From an uncultured Clostridia bacterium (lineage in GTDB: Bacteria > Bacillota > Clostridia > Christensenellales > Borkfalkiaceae), in NCBI GenBank assembly GCA_947053545.1, contig CAMRSY010000011.1, positions 1-49,497 of the forward strand: a stretch of DNA of 49,497 nt, written 5' to 3'. The notes beneath the pieces are model-generated. The model was not told the origin of the DNA. It was given only the letters and a program-made list of their open reading frames with translations, and searched no databases. Positions 39,205 to 49,497 of this stretch are shown piece by piece. Position numbers and translations under genes: made by a program. Each line of letters starts with the position of its first letter. Within the stretch, counting starts at the first letter, position 1.

Positions 39205-39466
39205 AATTTGAATTTTTATTTATCATCTGTGTCTTTTATTTTTTAATTGTCAAAATTATTTTTCATTTACTCAAATATATCGTTATAAGCAACTCGGTTA
39301 AAGCAATTAAGTTTAACCGATTTTCTGTCAGTTAAAGTAAATCACGAAAAAAAGCAGAAAAAAAGAGAGGAAAAAATTTTAAAGAAGACGAAAATTGTCA
39401 TATAAAAGCGGTTAGGATATGCACAAACATATGTTTACGAATAAAAATAAAGGAGGTGAGGAAGAG
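39205..39466. other. AT-rich intergenic region before the RHS locus
   Basis: No supported gene except possible N-terminal extensions of the next one. It contains the inverted repeat at 39294-39320, purine-rich runs, and a weak promoter-like TTGTCA (39395-39400). I could not place a confident promoter. Confidence 0.4.
39294..39320. promoter_or_regulatory. Inverted repeat upstream of the RHS locus
   Basis: Perfect 9-base arms TCGGTTAAA/TTTAACCGA separated by nine bases and followed by TTTTCTG. It could be an operator for an unknown regulator or a weak terminator/attenuator in the leader. Confidence 0.4.
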
Positions 39467-39961
39467 ATGGGAATAATGCAGATAATAGCAGACTACGGCG
39501 TAGATACGTTAGTGATTGCGATAGGTACGGTAGTGTTTACGGGGACATTGAAGATACCAATCAAGAAGCTGGCGGAGAAGACGAAAAGCAGTAAAAAGAT
39601 AACCAGATTTATAACATTGTTGCCGATAATAATCGGGTTAGGCATAACGGCGTTGAGCAGGTATTTGCTAAGTAAACAGATAGAAATAGATAAAGAATTT
39701 AACGTGCAGTGGCTTTCGTCTGTTAGTTTAAGCTTAGCGATATACGCGGTATGGGAAAAGTTTGTACCGTCGGAGAAGAAAATACTAACCGAAGCGGAAC
39801 TGGAAGCGAACAAAGCCGCGGTTGAAGAGTTGAAGAGTAAATTACAGGATAACTTTGAAAGCATAGCGGAAGCGCCTGCCGAGGACGCCGGACAAGCGGA
39901 AATAGAAAAGGCAACAGAGCACAGAAAAATAATTTTAACAAACGATAAAAAATTGAGATAA
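39467..39961 (+). CDS. Holin-like small membrane protein preceding the RHS toxin
   Basis: A 164-residue protein with two or three predicted membrane segments (VDTLVIAIGTVVFTGTLKI, ITLLPIIIGLGITALSRYLL, and WLSSVSLSLAIYAVWEKFV) and a charged, probably coiled C-terminal tail of about 65 residues. The layout resembles phage holins and toxin-associated holins such as TcdE. No named family is certain. ATG 39467 has AGGAGG ten bases upstream. A further in-frame ATG at 39419 has no good ribosome site. It ends 11 bases before the RHS gene, whose product lacks a signal peptide, so it may help release that protein. Confidence 0.6.
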   Translation: MGIMQIIADYGVDTLVIAIGTVVFTGTLKIPIKKLAEKTKSSKKITRFITLLPIIIGLGITALSRYLLSKQIEIDKEFNVQWLSSVSLSLAIYAVWEKFVPSEKKILTEAELEANKAAVEELKSKLQDNFESIAEAPAEDAGQAEIEKATEHRKIILTNDKKLR

Positions 39962-39972
39962 GGAGAAAAATT

Positions 39973-42900
39973 ATGGGAACTATTAAATTGAATAAAAGCC
40001 GGGATAAAGAGGGAATGCAGGAGGTAAATCAGGAAAACGTATCGATAAGCGCGATAGACGAAAGCGAAGGCAAGGTTGTTACAAAGGCGTTGGATTGCGA
40101 GATTGCAAAGAACGACGGCGGATTTATCGAAGAAATCAAAGAATTAAGAACGGCGAACGAGACGGTATATAAGCGCAACGACGGCACATGCAGGAAAATA
40201 ATCACTGTGTCGCCGACAAGATACCGCGACGATAGCGGCGAGTATAAGGAAATAAGCAATAGGTTGACAGACAACGAGCGGGAGATAGTAAGCGAAGCAA
40301 ATTCGTTTAAGGTAAAGTTCGATAAAAGCGGGGCAAGCGGCAAAATCTTCGAAATGCGCAAAGGCGGGAAAAAACTGACGTTGTCGGCAGGCGGGAAACA
40401 GCCGCGCGAACATACCTGCGGATGTAAGTGCGGGATATGCGCGGGAAAGGAAAACGCGGTTATAGCAACAATGGACGACGGCACGGAAATAGAGTACATA
40501 ACGCTAAACGACAGGGTTAAAGAAAATATAATCGTAAAGGAAAGGCAGGAGAAGTACGAATACAATTTCACGCTAAATATCGGGGATATGACCGTTGAGG
40601 AAGGCGAGCATAACGACCTTTTAATAAAGGACAAAGAGACGGGGAAAACGGAGTTCAGAATACCGGCGCCGTATATGTACGACGCAAACAAAAAGCGTTC
40701 GAACAAAGTCAGCTATGAAATAGACGTAAACGGCAGCGAGCTTGAAATAAAAGTGGTTGCCGACGCGGAATTCATCAATGCAAAAGACCGTGCTTTCCCT
40801 GTGGTTATAGATCCGCAGATAATTGATCAAAAAACTACTTATGAAGGTATTTCATTTGTATCAAGAACGCAATGGCTCGATGAAGATATTACATATGATC
40901 CTAATAATTTGGAAGTAAGAAATAATGGCGACGTACTTACAGATGCTACAGTAACCTATAGAGCCCCGTCATCAATACCGGAAGGACATATCTTAGACGT
41001 AAAGCTTATTTTAAGTATCGATACGGGTATGGGAAATGTAAATATAAACGGGGATATATACGATGCAGGCGCAAATGACACAGAAATTGAGATTCCTGTA
41101 GGAGTAGGTGGAGCAGGTTCGTTTAAAATTTATTGCGCTCGTTCTGATTTTTGGAATAACTATTGTGAATTTCGCGACCCTTGGTTTGTAATTGATTACA
41201 TTGAAGTTCCCGAAGCGTACAGAGGACAGGAATTTAACGCAAGTAATCCTCCGATGATAAAGGATTTTGATTTTACCGATAAAGCTACCGGACATGTCTA
41301 TGCAAAATATGGAACACTTGCAACTGCGTTTAAATCGTTTGATGCAGAGGATTTTGTTTTACCTTTAAATATTTCGCATTGTCATAAAGTTGGAATGGGT
41401 AAAACCGAGTTTGGTATGGACTGGCGTTTAAATTTAAACAGGAAATTGAAATCGCGAGGCTCGAGTGGATATTTATATATCGACGATCTCGGAGATAAAT
41501 ACATACTTTCGGAAAAATATTATTATGCGGATGGTGACAATGTCTATACGGTGAACAAGCAGTCGGTTACTATTGATGTGAACGGAAACATGACTTATGA
41601 GGGTAAACCCGTATATAAGTATCAAACGTTCAACGGGTTAACTCTTATACCGGAGATTAAAGATTTTATAAATTACGACTTGGTGCAACAAAAAAGCGAC
41701 GAAATAATTCAGCTTGAGGATTACATAAATCAGCTTGCTCCTACGTTGAAAAATTATGTCATTGTATCCTCATCCGATGGTCAAGTAACTACCGATTTGA
41801 GTTCGTTGACAAGAAGCACGTATGACGAATTTATTAAAAAAGTTTCGTCGTCAGATTTACTTTTAAGTTCAGGCGAAGCAACTCAGTTGAGAAACTTATA
41901 TTTAAGCGAAAATCAATTTGTTACGCAAATTAGCCAGTTAGAACAGCAACTGGTCGAATGTAATCAATTATTGCAAAAATATGAAAATAATTCAACAGAC
42001 CATCTCAATGCTAAAGAACAAAATAGATTGTTAGAGGCGCAAATAAGTAATGCGGGAAACCAACTTTCGGAGATTAAAAAACAGCAAGAGATTTTCTTAA
42101 AACAATCTCGCGAAAACGTATCTATAGTCAAAGAGACTTTTATAAGATATTTCAGCAAAGAACAAGAACTTACTCTGCTTAGGAAGCAGACTCCCGTTAA
42201 CTACTTGCGCGATGAGAATGAGATTATAAGCGGATTCAATTCAAATGGTGATTTAGTTCTCATATGCGACAAATACGGTAACGGCGTCAATATAGTTTAC
42301 GACGCGAAAAATAGAATTTCCGAGATTTATGATACCCAAGGAAAAACTATGAATTTCGAATATCAGGGTAGCTTGCTTTACAGGATAACGGATAATCTTG
42401 GAAGACGCGTGCAGTATACTTATAAGGGAAATGAACTAATAAAGGTGGTTTATGCGGATGGAAGTTTCATCGATTTTGAATATCAGGGTAAATACAATAT
42501 TGTTCGTTCTGTAATGTCAAGTACTGACTTTCAAGCTAAAGTCAGCGTTGACGATTTCAATCGAGTAACAAATATTGCAACAAACTCGAAACCCGTTACG
42601 ATAAGTGCAGAAGTTTTAAAAGAGAAAGACAGTTTTAATAAAACTATTGCGAATATAGCCGTGGATTACGATAAAAACGAAAGCGGCGAAGTGCGTACTA
42701 CGTTTACAAGTAAAGACAATAAATCTGAGCGCTATACCTTTAATAGTATTAACAGGGTGAAACTGATTGAAAAGACGGATAATGACTTTGTCAAGACGGT
42801 CACCGCATTGACGTATGATAGTAACGGTAACGTAACAAAGAGTGTCATACAGCACGATATTGACGGTACGGAAGAAGAGTTTTCAACCTTTAACATAATA

Positions 42901-45621
42901 AATCAACTAAAATCTAAGACGAGCGGCTGGAAAAATATTTCCGATACGGCAAAAGTAAAAACCGAAATTACGTATTTATATGACGGTAGCGGAAACCTTA
43001 TCAAGGAAATAACAACCGAACAAACCGACGTTAGCGGAACAATAATTACCACTACCAAAATTAAGATTTATTCGTATAATCCGCAGGGTAGCGTAACGCT
43101 TACGGAAAGCTATATCAATGGCGAAGAAGCAACGGAGGGCAAAAATTATGAGAAGCGAATTTATGACGAAAACGGCAAAGTAACAAAAACTATCCGCTGG
43201 AACAGTCTGGACAGCACGTCGAAATTCTATACGGAAAGCGACCGCGCCGAAAACGGACAGGTGACGGCAGACCATGACGAAACGGGCAAAGTATCCGCAG
43301 AGTATGAATATGTGGACGGAACAAACGTAGTAAATTCGGTAAAATATCCTAACGGAAGCAGTTTTGCATACGGCAGAAACCCTAATAATTTCGAGGTAAC
43401 GGGCATAACGCGCAGCACGGACGACGGCGAAGAAAACTCCACGCAAATAGTTTATAATTACGGCTTGCCGGTTAAAGTTAAAAGCGGCAATACAACCTTA
43501 GGTTATACGTACGACCATACCCGTCGCAAAATCGCAGTTGCTGTTAACGGCGTTACGCAGGCAACGTATACATATAAGGACTACACATACAATACAAATC
43601 AGAATAAGTGTACGTTTGGCGAGCAGACTACGGTGCTTGACGACGGTAACGGAACAACGACTACGGTTTTGCAAAGCAAGACGGGCGTATTGGATTCCGA
43701 AAGCGGTAGAATTAAGGCAACCGAGGTGATAAAAATCAACGGCTCTGAAAAGAGCAGGAAGGAATACGACCAAAACGGCAGGCTTATAAGCCTTAAGGAC
43801 AGCGTGTCGGGAACAAAGACTTACGTCTACGATAATTACAATAACGTAACAAGTATTACGGGCGGCGGACTATCCGAAAATTACAGGTACAATGATTACG
43901 GCGAAGTAACGCAAAAAGTAATAACTATGGGCGAAGAAACTCAAACATATTCATATACGTATAAGAACAATGCGGCGCGTTCGCTTAAAAGTATAAGCGT
44001 GGCGGACTATACGTTTAAGCCTTTAACCGACGTAAACGGCAGGAACACCGGCAGGGAAATTTACGGCGGCGAAAATAAGCTTGCGGCGGAATACATAACC
44101 TATCGCAAGGCGGGCGACCACGCCACAAATATGCCGGCAACCGTGTGGTTCGGTAGCGGCTCGCAGATTAAGGACAGCATAAAGTACAAATACGATTCGT
44201 GCGGGAATATATGCCGGATAACCGAAAACGGACACGTGGTAGCCAAGTATGAATACGACAGTTTAAACCGTCTAATACGCGAGGACAATAAACCCTTAAA
44301 TAAAACGGTACTGTACAGTTACGACCAAAACGGCAACATAACCGAACGCTGCGAATACGCGTATACGTTGAAGAGCGGCGAGGAGCTAGAAGAACTTAAA
44401 TGTACGCATTACAGTTACGACTACGAGGGTGATAAGCTTGTAAGTTACAACGGCGAAACGTTTGAGTATAACAATCTGGGTTGCCCCACGACGTACTGCG
44501 GAAAAACCTGCGGGTGGCAGTACGGTAAAATGCTTGCGAGCTATAACGGCACATTGTTTGAGTACGACGGCTTGGGCAGAAGAACAAGCAAGAGCGGCAT
44601 AACATTTACATACGACAGCGACGGCAGACTTATAAAGCAGAGTAACGGATTAGAGTTTATATACGACAATTCGGGTGTTGTAGGCGTAAAGTACGGCGGA
44701 GTGCAGTATTTCTACCGCAAGGACGCGCAGGGCAATATAATTGCTATCCTTGACAGTTCGGGCAAAGTGGTGGTAAAATATGAATACGACGCGTGGGGTA
44801 ACCACAAAGTAGTAGACAACAACGGAAATAAAATAATAAACGGAATAGGCGTGGTCAATCCTTTCAGATACCGCGGATATTATTACGACGTTGAAACTGG
44901 TTTGTACTATTTACAAAACCGCTATTACGACCCTGAGATAGGCAGGTTTATTTCGCAGGACAGCTTAGAATACGCCGACCCCGAAACCATAAACGGACTT
45001 AACCTTTACGCATACTGTGGCAACAACCCTATAATGAACGTTGACCCTACGGGTGAATTCTTTCTTAGCTTGTTTATAGCAATTGTTGCAGGAGCTGTTG
45101 TTGGTGGGCTAATAGGGGGAGTAAAGGCTGTCTCTGAAGGCGATAGTTTTTTAAGCGGATTTTTATCTGGGGCTTTAGTTGGCGGTGTGTTGGGCGGCGC
45201 TATGGTTCTTGGCGGTGCTGCAATGCTGGCAGTTGCTGGTAAAGCAATTGCGGGCATAGGCGTTTTAACTACTTTTGCTGCCAAAGCAGGTTTTTTAATC
45301 GGTACAGCAACTATTTCTTATGTGGCATCTGTAGGTGCTGGTATGGGGGCTTATGCCATACAAGAAAGCATGAACGGACGTGAAATAAACACATCTGAAA
45401 TGATACGTCAAGGCATAAATACAGGGCTAAAGGGTTTATTATCTTTTGGTACTGGAATGATGTTTGCGGCTGCTGGTGCATACCCTAATTTATTGGCTAC
45501 AGGGAAAATGTCGTTCTTACAGACAATCAAAAGATCCGTCGATTTATTTGTGCATTATGGAATTCCCAGGATTTTTGCAAGCTTGATACTGCAAACGCCT
45601 TGGAAGATATTAATAAAATGA
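39973..45621 (+). CDS. RHS-repeat polymorphic toxin, expressed copy with membrane-type tip
   Basis: An 1882-residue protein with no signal peptide. The N-terminal part contains a cysteine cluster (Cys149, 151, 153, 156 in CGCKCGIC) and a WapA-like segment ending FPVVIDPQI (near 285). A DNRLRE-like beta region follows (about 290-420), then a coiled-coil insertion (about 570-720) and many YD/RHS repeats. The RHS core ends with PFRYRGYYYD...YYDPEIGRFISQD...NLYAYCGNNP and VDPTG (1690-1694). The last 188 residues are a separate tip rich in Gly and Ala with several hydrophobic, glycine-zipper-like helices, probably a membrane-acting toxin. AAGGAG precedes ATG. Its stop overlaps the immunity gene in ATGA. 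Toxin action is inferred from family and layout. Confidence 0.86.
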   Translation: MGTIKLNKSRDKEGMQEVNQENVSISAIDESEGKVVTKALDCEIAKNDGGFIEEIKELRTANETVYKRNDGTCRKIITVSPTRYRDDSGEYKEISNRLTDNEREIVSEANSFKVKFDKSGASGKIFEMRKGGKKLTLSAGGKQPREHTCGCKCGICAGKENAVIATMDDGTEIEYITLNDRVKENIIVKERQEKYEYNFTLNIGDMTVEEGEHNDLLIKDKETGKTEFRIPAPYMYDANKKRSNKVSYEIDVNGSELEIKVVADAEFINAKDRAFPVVIDPQIIDQKTTYEGISFVSRTQWLDEDITYDPNNLEVRNNGDVLTDATVTYRAPSSIPEGHILDVKLILSIDTGMGNVNINGDIYDAGANDTEIEIPVGVGGAGSFKIYCARSDFWNNYCEFRDPWFVIDYIEVPEAYRGQEFNASNPPMIKDFDFTDKATGHVYAKYGTLATAFKSFDAEDFVLPLNISHCHKVGMGKTEFGMDWRLNLNRKLKSRGSSGYLYIDDLGDKYILSEKYYYADGDNVYTVNKQSVTIDVNGNMTYEGKPVYKYQTFNGLTLIPEIKDFINYDLVQQKSDEIIQLEDYINQLAPTLKNYVIVSSSDGQVTTDLSSLTRSTYDEFIKKVSSSDLLLSSGEATQLRNLYLSENQFVTQISQLEQQLVECNQLLQKYENNSTDHLNAKEQNRLLEAQISNAGNQLSEIKKQQEIFLKQSRENVSIVKETFIRYFSKEQELTLLRKQTPVNYLRDENEIISGFNSNGDLVLICDKYGNGVNIVYDAKNRISEIYDTQGKTMNFEYQGSLLYRITDNLGRRVQYTYKGNELIKVVYADGSFIDFEYQGKYNIVRSVMSSTDFQAKVSVDDFNRVTNIATNSKPVTISAEVLKEKDSFNKTIANIAVDYDKNESGEVRTTFTSKDNKSERYTFNSINRVKLIEKTDNDFVKTVTALTYDSNGNVTKSVIQHDIDGTEEEFSTFNIINQLKSKTSGWKNISDTAKVKTEITYLYDGSGNLIKEITTEQTDVSGTIITTTKIKIYSYNPQGSVTLTESYINGEEATEGKNYEKRIYDENGKVTKTIRWNSLDSTSKFYTESDRAENGQVTADHDETGKVSAEYEYVDGTNVVNSVKYPNGSSFAYGRNPNNFEVTGITRSTDDGEENSTQIVYNYGLPVKVKSGNTTLGYTYDHTRRKIAVAVNGVTQATYTYKDYTYNTNQNKCTFGEQTTVLDDGNGTTTTVLQSKTGVLDSESGRIKATEVIKINGSEKSRKEYDQNGRLISLKDSVSGTKTYVYDNYNNVTSITGGGLSENYRYNDYGEVTQKVITMGEETQTYSYTYKNNAARSLKSISVADYTFKPLTDVNGRNTGREIYGGENKLAAEYITYRKAGDHATNMPATVWFGSGSQIKDSIKYKYDSCGNICRITENGHVVAKYEYDSLNRLIREDNKPLNKTVLYSYDQNGNITERCEYAYTLKSGEELEELKCTHYSYDYEGDKLVSYNGETFEYNNLGCPTTYCGKTCGWQYGKMLASYNGTLFEYDGLGRRTSKSGITFTYDSDGRLIKQSNGLEFIYDNSGVVGVKYGGVQYFYRKDAQGNIIAILDSSGKVVVKYEYDAWGNHKVVDNNGNKIINGIGVVNPFRYRGYYYDVETGLYYLQNRYYDPEIGRFISQDSLEYADPETINGLNLYAYCGNNPIMNVDPTGEFFLSLFIAIVAGAVVGGLIGGVKAVSEGDSFLSGFLSGALVGGVLGGAMVLGGAAMLAVAGKAIAGIGVLTTFAAKAGFLIGTATISYVASVGAGMGAYAIQESMNGREINTSEMIRQGINTGLKGLLSFGTGMMFAAAGAYPNLLATGKMSFLQTIKRSVDLFVHYGIPRIFASLILQTPWKILIK
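44191..44757 (+). repeat. 567-base perfect direct repeat, copy A (inside the full RHS gene)
   Basis: Identical base for base to 47511-48077 (offset 3320). It encodes the last YD repeats of the core, from YDSCGNICR to IIAILDS. Divergence begins where the tip region starts. The 67 bases at 49431-49497 match 44179-44245. Confidence 0.95.
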
Positions 45622-46115
45622 AGAAAGAACTTATTTTAAAGAACAGTATAAGATTATCTTTTGCAACTGCAATTTTTGCGACTATATCTACAGTTATTAT
45701 AGCCGGCATTGGATTCCTTGGTGAATATTTATCTTCAGGTAAAGCACATAAGTTTACTGATATTGTACTTATTGTATTTGCGTGTTTAATAGCGTTCATT
45801 TGGTTGGTTTTTATTATATCTTTTTTATTTTCAAGTAAGATAATAATAAATGACAACGAAATTAAAGCTAAAAAGTTTGGGAAAATAGTTTGGTCTTTAA
45901 AAAAAGAAGAAATTTTGGTTTGCATATATAATGAAATGCATTTATGGCAATTCTTAATACCTATAGCGAGTCTTAACGCAGGTGCTTTGCAATTTAAAAT
46001 GCAAAGTGGAAAGATTTCTCGGCATTCGTGTTCGTTGTCTAAAAAGCAAGTGGATAAAATAAAAGCAAACTTTGAATACCCTTTTAAAGAGATTCAAACA
46101 GTTTATGAGCAATAA
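45618..46115 (+). CDS. Putative immunity protein 1 (two membrane helices plus PH-like domain)
   Basis: A 165-residue protein. Two membrane segments (about 12-37 and 50-75) are followed by a soluble beta-rich part (IIINDNEIKAKKFGKIVWSLKKEEILVCIYNEM) that resembles bacterial PH-like domains. The ATG overlaps the RHS stop (ATGA), the usual arrangement of toxin tip and immunity gene. It most likely protects against the tip of the 39973 gene. The membrane location fits a membrane-active toxin. Function is inferred. The base composition is clearly more AT-rich than the RHS core. Confidence 0.6.
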   Translation: MKKELILKNSIRLSFATAIFATISTVIIAGIGFLGEYLSSGKAHKFTDIVLIVFACLIAFIWLVFIISFLFSSKIIINDNEIKAKKFGKIVWSLKKEEILVCIYNEMHLWQFLIPIASLNAGALQFKMQSGKISRHSCSLSKKQVDKIKANFEYPFKEIQTVYEQ

Positions 46116-46139
46116 TATTATTTATACTGTATAAGAACA

Positions 46140-46168
46140 GGGTGGGGAGTAATCTCCGCCCTTTTTTT
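46140..46168 (+). terminator. Terminator of RHS unit 1
   Basis: GGGTGGGGAG paired with CTCCGCCC (one bulge), loop TAAT, then seven T. Closely similar in sequence to the terminators of the next two units. Confidence 0.8.
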
Positions 46169-46173
46169 GTGTC

Positions 46174-46202
46174 TTGACGGTTTTAGCAATGTATAGTAAA
46201 AT
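46174..46202 (+). promoter_or_regulatory. Candidate promoter at the head of orphan RHS unit 2
   Basis: TTGACG, a 17-base spacer and TAAAAT. The -10 lies in the conserved coding sequence for VKYEYD, so it may be accidental, but it would allow transcription of the immunity gene at 46980. Confidence 0.3.
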
Positions 46203-46975
46203 ATGAATACGATGCGTGGGGCAAACATAAAGTAGTAGACGCAAACGGTAACGAAATAACAAGCGGCATAGGCGTGCTTAATCCGTTCAGATACCGCGGA
46301 TATTATTACGATACCGAAACCGAACTGTATTATTTGCAGACAAGGTATTATGATCCCGAACTCGGCAGGTTTATAAGTCAGGACAGCTTAGAATACGCCG
46401 ACCCCGAAACTATAAACGGACTTAACCTTTACGCATACTGCGGCAACAATCCTGTAATGAACGTTGACCCTAGTGGAAAAAGCTTACTTTTATTTTTATG
46501 CGTTTTAGGTGGAATAGTATTAGCTGGAGTTATTAATGGAGTAGGTGCGGTTATTAACGCTTCGGAAAATGAAAACAAATGGGGTGTTTTCCTCGGTGGT
46601 TTTATAAATGGTGTGGTAAGTGCCGCTGGTATTGCTATAGGCGTAGCTACCGGCGGAGTATTAGGCGGAATTATTGCAGTTGGTGCGGGATTTTTGGGTG
46701 GCTTTGTCGGCGATGCAATAAGTCAATCAATTTCGTACGGTAATGTGGATTTGACTCAAGCTACATATGCAGGAGTTGTAAACGGTTTTATTAATCTCGC
46801 GACATTTGTTGGGTTTAAAAATTTGGGTATTTTTAATGAGCCTACATGGGGGAAAAGATTTGCATCGGTTATTTCTCCTTCGATATTAACATCTGCCATA
46901 TCTATATTTTTAATGTCGTTGCCAATACCTTTTTATAAAAGAAATATTACAAAATTAGAAATAAGGAAAGAATAA
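46187..46975 (+). pseudogene. Orphan RHS tip 2 (start-less core fragment plus different toxin domain)
   Basis: The frame is open from 46187, just after a TAG, with no plausible ATG. The first in-frame GTG is at 46274. It begins at IVKYEYDAWGKHKVVDANG and repeats the conserved end of the RHS core to VDPSG (near 46477), then carries a different 165-residue tip. That tip (LLLFLCVLGGIVLAGVING..., several Gly-rich hydrophobic stretches, then KRNITKLEIRKE) again looks membrane-acting. It lacks the 567-base repeat. It is probably a silent donor for tip exchange rather than an independent gene. Its immunity gene follows five bases after the stop. Confidence 0.72.
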
Positions 46976-46979
46976 TATA

Positions 46980-47444
46980 ATGAAGAAAACATTTTATGTT
47001 TTTCCGCAAATGCCGTTTTATATAATAGCATTTAGCATAATAGAAATTTTAATAACTGTACTTTGTGTTACTGTGCCCACAATAAGTGGTGGGCAAGAAT
47101 ACATATTTTATATATTATTTTTTGTGTGTTTATTGTCAATTGTGCAAAGTGTTGGAGTAATTTGTATTATGTGGGCAAAAATTAGCTTTGATGAATGTGG
47201 AGTTACAAAATCTTTATTTGGGAAAAAAGTTAAATTTTTTTCGTGGGAAAGCATATGTGAAATTAAAGGACTAAATAATGATGCTTATTGGATAGTGTTT
47301 TGTAACAAACTTGTTTCAGATGAAAAATTGATTTTTAATAATAGAAAGAGTTATACAATACCAATTCGTAAACGCCAAGAAGTCGTTGATTCAATAATGC
47401 GGTATCTACCAAAAGAGAAATATGTAAAATGTGAAACTGAATAA
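46980..47444 (+). CDS. Putative immunity protein 2 (two membrane helices plus PH-like domain)
   Basis: A 154-residue protein with two membrane segments (about 12-34 and 43-66) and a beta-rich C-terminal part (ISFDECGVTKSLFGKKVKFFSWESICEIKGL) like bacterial PH-like domains. The plan is the same as immunity protein 1 although the sequences differ, matching the similar style of the two tips. AAGGAAAG lies upstream of ATG. The gene is AT-rich. Expression would need the weak promoter at 46174 or read-through. Confidence 0.58.
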   Translation: MKKTFYVFPQMPFYIIAFSIIEILITVLCVTVPTISGGQEYIFYILFFVCLLSIVQSVGVICIMWAKISFDECGVTKSLFGKKVKFFSWESICEIKGLNNDAYWIVFCNKLVSDEKLIFNNRKSYTIPIRKRQEVVDSIMRYLPKEKYVKCETE

Positions 47445-47460
47445 TTTTTAATAATTCAAA

Positions 47461-47488
47461 GGGCGGGGATTAATCTCCGCTCTTTTTT
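47461..47488 (+). terminator. Terminator of orphan RHS unit 2
   Basis: GGGCGGGGAT paired with ATCTCCGCTC (with G-T pairs) and loop TA, followed by six T and then GTACATTA, which marks the join to the next RHS repeat. Confidence 0.8.
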
Positions 47489-49010
47489 GTACATTAAAAT
47501 AAAGTATAAGTACGATTCGTGCGGGAATATATGCCGGATAACCGAAAACGGACACGTGGTAGCCAAGTATGAATACGACAGTTTAAACCGTCTAATACGC
47601 GAGGACAATAAACCCTTAAATAAAACGGTACTGTACAGTTACGACCAAAACGGCAACATAACCGAACGCTGCGAATACGCGTATACGTTGAAGAGCGGCG
47701 AGGAGCTAGAAGAACTTAAATGTACGCATTACAGTTACGACTACGAGGGTGATAAGCTTGTAAGTTACAACGGCGAAACGTTTGAGTATAACAATCTGGG
47801 TTGCCCCACGACGTACTGCGGAAAAACCTGCGGGTGGCAGTACGGTAAAATGCTTGCGAGCTATAACGGCACATTGTTTGAGTACGACGGCTTGGGCAGA
47901 AGAACAAGCAAGAGCGGCATAACATTTACATACGACAGCGACGGCAGACTTATAAAGCAGAGTAACGGATTAGAGTTTATATACGACAATTCGGGTGTTG
48001 TAGGCGTAAAGTACGGCGGAGTGCAGTATTTCTACCGCAAGGACGCGCAGGGCAATATAATTGCTATCCTTGACAGTAACGGCAAGGTAGTGGTAAAATA
48101 TGAATACGACGCATGGGGAAAACATAAAGTAGTAGACGCAAACGGGATAGGCGTGCTTAATCCTTTCAGATACCGCGGGTACTACTACGACACCGAAACT
48201 GGTTTGTATTATTTGCAGACAAGGTATTATGATCCCGAACTCGGCAGATTTATTTCGCAGGACAGCCTTGAATATGCCGACCCCGAAACGATTAACGGAC
48301 TTAACTTATACGCATACTGCGGTAATAATCCTGTTATGAGTGTTGACCCTAGTGGTAATGCGTGGTGGAATTGGCTCATTATTGGTATACAAGCTGTTGC
48401 TGGAATTGTTGCGTGTTTTGTGCCTGGGGGGCAAGGATTAGGTGTATCACTGCTTGTAGGCGCGACATTGGGCGCGGTTTCACAAGTTGTTGCACCAGCT
48501 GTGGCGCAAGTAATTGGTGGTGCTACGTCAATCTCTAATGGCATAGGGGCTTTTTCAACAGGTATTTCATTATTGGGTGCAGGACCTATTGGAATTATAG
48601 TGGGTGTAGGACTTATGGCAGTGGGTGCTGCAACAGCTCTTTTTGGTGCTAATGAAATGGTTGCTGGTATAACCGGTACCAATTATATTCAAAAGTGGAC
48701 GGGGATGAGTGATTATGCATATGGTTGGACCTATGCTGGTTTGAATATTGCTTCAAGTCTAGGACAACTTGTTGGAAATAGATATTTGCAATACAAATCT
48801 CGCGAGGTAAAGTTTAATTCTGACGGAAGCCCAAGACAATATAGATATTATGATAGAAGCGGTAATCGACTATATGATGTGGATTTTGGGCATGGTAATA
48901 TAAATTGGAAACATTATCATGCTTGGCTCAATAATACTAATAGATTAGGTGAAAATCATACAGGTTATCTTATAATGATTTTAGGATTGTTTAGGAGGCT
49001 ATTTTGGTAA
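47487..49010 (+). pseudogene. Orphan RHS tip 3 (core fragment plus third toxin domain)
   Basis: The frame opens at a TTG inside the preceding terminator's T-tract, so independent translation is unlikely. It encodes KYKYDSCGNICR onward, identical in DNA to the full RHS gene for 567 bases, then a diverged core end to VDPSG (near 48357). The 217-residue tip has a Gly/Ala-rich hydrophobic part (about 120 residues) and a polar C-terminal part with YYDRSGNRLYDVDFGHG, KHYHAW and ENHTGY. His/Asp-rich ends of this kind occur in polymorphic toxins that may be nucleases. I cannot name the family. An overlapping immunity gene begins at 49004. Confidence 0.75.
47511..48077 (+). repeat. 567-base perfect direct repeat, copy B (orphan tip 3)
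   Basis: Exact copy of 44191-44757. Perfect identity over this length, including third codon positions, implies recent recombination or continuing gene conversion. Confidence 0.95.
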
Positions 49011-49384
49011 ATATAATTCAATCGAATAAAATAAAAAAAGAAAAACGTATTAAAAATATAATCAAGAAAGAAAAAAGTTTGAGAACGCGAGAAGATAACA
49101 TTGAAATAGCTTATTACAAATTAGACAATGGAAAACCTATTTCATATGAAGAATATATTTTATTGTTATCTACAAATGACGAAATTTGGTTTTTATACAA
49201 TGATACTGAGTATCAGGTGGTTCATGAATCTGAACAAATTATATCTATGTGTTCTACGAGGTTTGAAAGAACACAAAGAATTTTGATAAATTGTCAAAAA
49301 TATTCATCACTTAATGAACTGCTTGAAAAATTTAGAATTGACGGTAAAACAATAAAAGAAATTTGGAACAATGTAACTTTTTAA
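49004..49384 (+). CDS. Putative immunity protein 3 (soluble)
   Basis: A 126-residue protein, starting at TTG five bases after AGGAGG and overlapping the stop of tip 3. No membrane segment. A basic N-terminal 35 residues precede a domain with SYEEYILLLSTNDEIWFLYNDTEYQVVHE and a C-terminal SLNELLEKFRIDGKTIKEIWNNV. The ending (D-G-K-x-x-K-E-I-W) is a recurring pattern in small Firmicutes proteins of unknown function, often near toxins. Soluble immunity fits a tip that acts in the cytoplasm, unlike tips 1 and 2. Function is inferred from position. Confidence 0.62.
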   Translation: MVNIIQSNKIKKEKRIKNIIKKEKSLRTREDNIEIAYYKLDNGKPISYEEYILLLSTNDEIWFLYNDTEYQVVHESEQIISMCSTRFERTQRILINCQKYSSLNELLEKFRIDGKTIKEIWNNVTF

Positions 49385-49392
49385 TTCTAAAA

Positions 49393-49420
49393 GAGTGGGT
49401 ATTTCTACCCGCTCTTTTTT
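49393..49420 (+). terminator. Terminator of orphan RHS unit 3
   Basis: Perfect stem GAGTGGGTA/TACCCGCTC with loop TTTC, followed by six T and again GTACATTA. Confidence 0.85.
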
Positions 49421-49430
49421 GTACATTAGT

Positions 49431-49497
49431 ATAAAGTACAAATACGATTCGTGCGGGAATATATGCCGGATAACCGAAAACGGACACGTGGTAGCCA
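49431..49497 (+). repeat. Start of a further RHS repeat copy, cut by window edge
   Basis: 67 bases identical to 44179-44245 of the full RHS gene, so a fourth tip unit starts here and continues beyond the window. Confidence 0.92.

Follow-up and report, generated by a model that had tools for sequence, protein, structure and literature searches.

A promoter-like block within RHS core codons and the orphan tip cassettes of gut Clostridia

Introduction

In Salmonella, recombination of an orphan toxin module into the main rhs gene has been shown (PMC3967940), and internal promoters (P2) have been described in both the main and the orphan rhs, with toxin made at a low level from a CTG start codon (PMC7043789). 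How orphan toxin modules persist while unused is an open question according to the same work (PMC7043789). Tandem start-less tips with immunity genes are also known as the orphan cdiA-CT/cdiI arrays of contact-dependent growth inhibition (CDI), for which the authors propose a role as immunity repertoire and toxin reservoir (PMC3150448). The silent cassettes of MafB in Neisseria are likewise start-less C-terminal (CT) cassettes followed by immunity genes, and one CT can be a cassette in one strain and the end of the full gene in another (PMC4287609). The Gram-positive RHS toxins LrhA of Listeria (PMC10327511) and WapA of Streptococcus suis (PMC12704120) come with orphans or truncated copies, a possible source of tip diversity. 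All these accounts are cited from excerpts. Here we describe an array of this kind in a stretch of 49,497 nucleotides (the window), which is the entire contig C11 of the metagenome-assembled genome (MAG) of an uncultured Clostridia bacterium (43 contigs, 1.50 Mb, 85.6% complete), and a promoter-like block that lies within the core codons of its RHS units.

The locus resembles the Salmonella rhs locus in having a full rhs gene, a start-less orphan tip, an immunity gene (here of putative role) and an in-core promoter, or promoter-like block, in both main gene and orphan (PMC7043789, PMC3967940). The Salmonella P2 start lies 89 nt ahead of the PxxxxDPxGL motif (PMC7043789, PMC3967940), in a later part of the core, the ETGL block, which we placed by eye, whereas our block sits some 270 nt ahead of the tip, away from that start position; it would thus work like P2 without being the same promoter. 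In our sequences the ETGL columns, as placed by eye, displayed no synonymous constraint comparable to that of the block described here. Since the Salmonella promoter sits in another core block, which has no comparable constraint in these genomes, the two promoters look independent. Unlike Salmonella, many cassettes here begin at the block, the arrays are longer, and relics keep the block together with an immunity-type open reading frame (ORF); conversely, toxin translation from CTG has been demonstrated in Salmonella, whereas the window array is known from sequence alone.

Among known arrays, those of CDI and MafB come closest. In the CDI system of EC93, transcription that begins ahead of the main CT also covers the orphan (PMC3150448), whereas terminators separate the window units and each complete unit has a promoter-like block. 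MafB is a different carrier protein from another phylum, and the excerpted account describes no in-gene promoter (PMC4287609). Arrays with promoters of their own are also absent from the excerpted accounts of LrhA (PMC10327511) and WapA (PMC12704120), and among the matches listed for the open-access full-text literature none reported such a promoter for Bacillota.

Results and Discussion

A promoter-like block is conserved at synonymous positions of the RHS core

The window holds one full RHS gene with YD/RHS repeats and an RHS-associated core (PF05593 and TIGR03696 both above cut-off), followed by two orphan units and the beginning of another (Table 1). An earlier note on this DNA had described a full gene with an overlapping immunity gene, two start-less tips each with its own immunity gene and terminator, a repeated order of core fragment, tip, immunity gene and terminator, and a further unit at the edge, and we found this layout as described, the overlap being an ATGA. 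The joining of a tip at 44757, which the note had also put forward, is where the identity between the cores of unit 1 (the full gene) and unit 3 stops; this identity, over 567 bp, is far beyond chance. In the core codons of both units, and in unit 2 directly after terminator 1, lies a block with the letters of a sigma-A promoter.

The MAG belongs to the genus of Candidatus Coproplasma; one genome assigned to this genus has a contig identical to one of Candidatus Coproplasma avicola (L091 and L119), which makes the host a Clostridia-type bacterium. To place this block in context, 93 genomes of the genus and a sample of 297 genomes of the order were compared; RHS-associated cores were present in 21 of the former and 70 of the latter (66 above cut-off). 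Sequence stretches from all 21 core-carrying genomes plus G030 and G032 gave 71 core matches, and seven were excluded (tip shorter than 100 aa or core match ending early), which left 64 core-tip units: 17 full, 34 orphan and 13 whose left side meets a contig edge. The block position could be scored in 54 of these, from 21 genomes, ten having no anchor or insufficient sequence. With a block called at a score of at least 10 of 13, it was found in 41 of the 54 units, from 15 genomes (11/17 full, 26/32 orphan and 4/5 contig-edge units), and the spacer was 18 in every one except window unit 2 (17, with the −35 outside the open frame).

When the same amino acids were recoded with each locus's own core codon use (49 units), 35 of the 37 block-carrying units had P<0.05 and every unit with P<0.05 was among those 37. 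Codon choice at the −35 and −10 was close to uniform over 42 aligned units, with GAC in 37/37 Asp codons, GTG in 33/36 and GTA in 34/34 Val codons, and NAA in 35/35 Gln, Lys or Glu codons of the block. Between genomes, observed over expected synonymous identity was 2.30 for the five block columns versus 1.15 (standard deviation 0.33) for 130 others. These five columns were the most constrained offset-matched set, the best of 65 slid positions and equalled by 0 of 100000 random sets; the next-best set (1.81) overlapped block columns, and the majority of the spacer codons behaved as ordinary columns. Taken together, these comparisons point to a promoter-like element that is conserved at synonymous positions inside RHS core codons.

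Cassette edges, substitute promoters and relics

Among 32 orphans with a visible left edge, core homology began at most 6 codons from the block site in 18, and 17 of these carried the block. Many of these orphans closely follow a terminator-like hairpin, as judged by eye, folding having been done for the window. A named collection of 84,980 species genomes, scanned for block plus RHS anchor and with hits overlapping the genus set, gave 91 sites, of which 67 had an upstream stop; 35 of those 67 opened within 30 codons of the block. Five orphans of the genus set have no in-core block (a sixth, L049, belongs to another family and is outside this count), and in three of them, L009, L086 and L093, the junction has a TTGACA promoter of its own, its spacer 17 bp long (L009 and L086 by score, L093 by eye).

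We also followed up ten pattern sites outside the stretches already taken. Five are relics that keep the block, with the tip lost or broken and an immunity-type ORF downstream. In L205 this ORF lies at +194, and its product is 42% identical to the protein that follows an orphan tip in G001; in L204 it lies at +128, with 41% to a protein that follows a tip in L149. Three assignments are weaker: L209, with an ORF at +81 and 34% to one of the L206 locus; L206, where other frames precede an ORF at +740 that shares 50% with one from L102, itself a stretch holding an RHS remnant; and, from the genome of the window, L203 (contig C2:66567), a decayed RHS gene followed at +400 by a 167-aa membrane-type ORF for which no homologue was found. 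Of the remaining sites, L207 is decayed, L208 unclear and L212 a long frame at a contig edge. Two sites, L210 and L211, are ordinary gene starts, where the same −35/−10 pattern stands directly before other ORFs, whose starts are 38 and 69 nt past the −35. They form a natural check on the resemblance of the block pattern to promoters of this genus.

In the window, identity between units 1 and 3 steps down at the block site from 1.00 to 0.82, ending 8 bp into the block. A general recombination breakpoint at this step was considered and rejected, as between-genome pairs also rise by 0.10.

Tips occur in full genes and in orphans

The variable C-terminal tip is set off from the conserved core. For 38 of 47 units the closest core DNA came from their own genome (shuffling the labels 1000 times gave a mean of 4.0 and a maximum of 13), whereas the closest tip did so for 4 of 26 tips with a match reaching the C-terminus. 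Related tips were found at both positions: window orphan tip 2 and the full-gene tip of G059, a sister species, share 69% over 157 aa and their adjoining immunity-type proteins 46%, and further orphan-full pairs had 42% (L043/L044, same genome), 52% (L089/L094) and 51% (L045/L100), with 37-41% between the full tip of L041 and the orphan tips of L100 and L047. The ratio of nonsynonymous to synonymous divergence (dN/dS) was about 0.16 for window tip 2 versus G059 and about 0.23 for two G004 orphans, so tips are under constraint in the pairs measured; in the other six pairs dS was high or saturated.

A known toxin family was matched by one of 60 tips scanned, a TNT tip in L009, and one weak NCBIfam match to a type VI secretion system effector was seen. 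At least one hydrophobic segment is present in 58 of 60 tips of the genus set and at least two in 48; the tips have 14% Gly. Hydrophobic segments also occur in 39 of 58 immunity-type proteins. Tips with an HExxH motif, presumably metalloprotease-like, were seen in orphan (L041, L089, L144) and full (L094) positions, and the long tip of the full gene in L101 looks, to us, as if it contained a Hint-type self-processing domain.

Directly behind the tip, 62 of 64 units have an ORF of at least 60 aa with a putative immunity role. A Shine-Dalgarno match of at least 4 nt precedes 45 of the 62, a count made with the best of several starts and without a null. Orphan tips, in contrast, with few exceptions appear to have no translation start of the kinds searched for (CTG and leaderless starts excluded). 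In the window, the orphan 2 frame, which opens after TAG 46184, has no ATG, GTG or TTG ahead of GTG 46274, and the listed start of orphan 3 (TTG 47487) sits within the terminator tail, which makes this unit effectively start-less. Orphans as independent genes with start codons were therefore rejected, a convincing start being found in none. The earlier note would have given up its reading had each orphan a start codon and a promoter of its own; the tip starts were not found, and the promoter-like blocks are there.

Proposed role of the cassettes and alternative explanations

From these features we infer how the array would behave in living cells with respect to transcription, immunity and toxin activity, delivery and switching. 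One and the same cassette would form the RHS gene's 3' end as well as each orphan, made up of in-core promoter, the last ~95-100 aa of core, tip, immunity gene and terminator. In the full gene the hidden promoter would add immunity-gene transcripts independent of the long gene, and in an orphan it would be the unit's own promoter, behind the preceding terminator. As the orphan tip has neither start codon nor ribosome-binding site, immunity would be made and toxin not, and the shared core DNA would allow homologous recombination to swap cassettes into the full gene, so that the array could serve both as a library of immunity genes that are expressed and as a reserve of toxins. We consider it likely that each cassette is a transcription unit which expresses immunity and not toxin and which can recombine into the full gene. 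With somewhat less confidence, we favour the wider proposal that the RHS core coding sequence doubles, at its silent positions, as a sigma-A promoter and as the left edge of an exchangeable cassette in gut Clostridia related to Candidatus Coproplasma (which we take to be Christensenellales in GTDB), and that this arose independently of the Salmonella promoter.

If this is true, placing a promoter for immunity inside the gene would be a solution reached repeatedly, by which many toxins are held unmade while the cell is immune to kin that have switched. A promoter in core codons would also directly answer how unused orphans are kept up, with the immunity expressed and the toxin unmade. The idea of a silent storage array, as the earlier note had it, is accordingly only partly retained: tips at both full and orphan positions and cores homogenised within genomes agree with storage, and silence fits the toxin, whose start signals were not found, but probably not transcription and immunity, given the constrained promoter-like blocks.

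Other explanations have to be weighed against this. The internal promoter might make tip and immunity protein within the cell, the pair being kept as a selfish or growth-controlling type II toxin-antitoxin module. The CTG-started, low-level toxin of the Salmonella internal promoter (PMC7043789) would be a precedent, and the immunity-type ORFs that have no Shine-Dalgarno match as well as the purifying selection on tips in the measured pairs would fit. We nevertheless regard it as unlikely, since none of the 39 orphan or contig-edge units has AGGAG or GGAGG in the stretch from promoter to tip (a search that left CTG and leaderless starts aside), an in-frame start with a 5-nt match lies near the tip in just 6 of 64 units, three of these full genes, and relics that retain block and immunity-type ORF after loss of the tip are unlike what addiction predicts. 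Less probable still is plain storage, in which orphans stay unexpressed and matter after recombination only, the block arising as a by-product of codon usage or of common ancestry. In its favour are the start-less tips, the terminators that separate the window units and the tips at both positions. In addition, a generic scan for promoters in the window did not rise above shuffled sequence (35 found versus 30.8 expected), although that of a second array in the same genome did (34 versus 19.4). With the window scan at shuffle level, the case for a promoter depends on the synonymous tests and the cassette edges; the constraint seen both against local codon use and between genomes, the mostly ordinary spacer codons and the substitute promoters in three of five block-less orphans argue against a by-product.

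The block could also be a recombination or integration site and not a promoter, and the start of cassettes at this point would then follow from it; both the 18 left edges at the block and the end of the identity of window units 1 and 3 within it are in line with such a site. We find this highly improbable, as the letters kept across units spell a sigma-A promoter and the 18-bp spacer between them is loose, the substitutes at junctions are promoters with 17-bp spacers, the same pattern stands before two other ORFs, and a sharp identity drop is seen in only 1 of 17 same-genome pairs, so the step is not general.

That last count, and several further points, also tell against our interpretation. 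A few single other columns are as constrained as the block (an Arg column at 2.66, others at 2.1-2.3), and units of one genome, and homologous loci generally, are not independent. The block is absent in 6 of the 21 scored genomes, two of those outside the genus, and in the wider order, sampled as 29 stretches picked irrespective of the block, P<0.05 was reached in 9 of 36 scored frames (29 loci), so that certain lineages commonly have the block and other lineages lack it. The left edges of 14 of the 32 orphans lie elsewhere, most of them further upstream and hence including the site; one orphan, L098, begins downstream of it, and the block-less orphans L100 and L047 have no clear substitute promoter. 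In 17 of the 62 immunity-type ORFs, imm1 included, no Shine-Dalgarno match was found, and some of these may need tip translation. A transcript from 44780 would moreover cross more than 800 nt ahead of imm1. Finally, the constraint on tips may date from their time in full genes.

Other arrays and distribution of the block

A second array lies on contig C27 (L009) of the same genome, where a full gene with the TNT tip (PF14021, E 1.3e-17) is followed by an immunity-type gene and an orphan; the cores of orphan and full gene are identical over 1387 bp, up to the tip. G004 lines up one full gene with four orphans, and G297, from another family, one long and six short core-bearing frames in line. 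MAG assemblies break at these repeats, as the end of C11 cuts unit 4 and that of C27 cuts behind the orphan tip. Because the contig ends at 49497, units to the right cannot be counted, and because of the 567-bp perfect repeat, the unit order and the tip assigned to the window's full gene depend on the assembly; the junctions themselves are local and recur across many assemblies.

A looser form of the block pattern matched 51 times in 17 of the 93 genus genomes and 0 times when read backwards, and could thus serve as a cheap signature for cassettes and relics in uncultured gut genomes. In the named collection, block plus RHS anchor occurred in 71 stretches, mostly titled as Clostridia-type MAGs, plus Pumilibacter muris. 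The record of P. muris CLA-AA-M08 contains a full gene, which spans at least 1185 aa before the stretch edge cuts it, and two orphans with the block, and this is a named strain in which the idea is testable. Two of the 71 stretches (L157, L161) are titled Candidatus Scatousia and Acholeplasmatales, which could reflect transfer or misbinned contigs.

Layout of the window array and its upstream neighbour

Table 1. Features of the RHS array in the window (positions of the whole stretch)
Feature	Position	Strand	Evidence or remark
Full-length RHS gene, 1882 aa (delivery part, core, tip 1)	39973..45621	+	PF05593 repeats E 7.3e-23; TIGR03696 E 4.7e-25
Core stretch, identical over 567 bp to 47511-48077 (unit 3)	44191..44757	+	Sequence comparison
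Promoter-like block in RHS core codons of the full gene, TTGACA-18-TAAAAT, TG before −10	44750..44779	+	Top promoter score, 11/12; P 0.008 versus synonymous recoding
Tip 1 (polymorphic C-terminus), Gly-rich, three hydrophobic segments	45049..45618	+	
imm1, immunity-type gene; ATG overlaps RHS stop as ATGA	45618..46115	+	
Terminator 1	46139..46162	+	Fold -17.6 kcal/mol, z -4.1
Promoter-like block of unit 2, TTGACG-17-TAAAAT, directly after terminator 1	46174..46202	+	−35 outside open frame
Orphan unit 2, start-less core end and tip 2 (tip 46472-46972)	46187..46975	+	TIGR03696 E 3.3e-25
imm2, immunity-type membrane protein, Shine-Dalgarno-like AAGGA	46980..47444	+	
Terminator 2	47458..47481	+	Fold -16.7 kcal/mol, z -5.3
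Unit 3 core copy, long form	47499..48351	+	
In-core promoter-like block of unit 3, TTGACA-18-TAAAAT	48070..48099	+	Promoter score equal to that of the full-gene block; P 0.004 versus synonymous recoding
Tip 3 of orphan unit 3	48351..49010	+	
imm3, TTG start 5 nt past AGGAGG	49004..49384	+	
Terminator 3	49389..49418	+	Fold -18.0 kcal/mol, z -6.7
Fourth unit, beginning only	49428..49497	+	70 bp, one mismatch to 44176-44245; contig end precedes any promoter position

A 180-aa protein with two hydrophobic segments adjoins the RHS gene upstream (39419-39961). It matched no Pfam family above cut-off, and its PHROGs matches were weak and of unknown function. Homologues (47% and 53%) precede full RHS genes in L078 and L094, and the protein may be a delivery partner of RHS.

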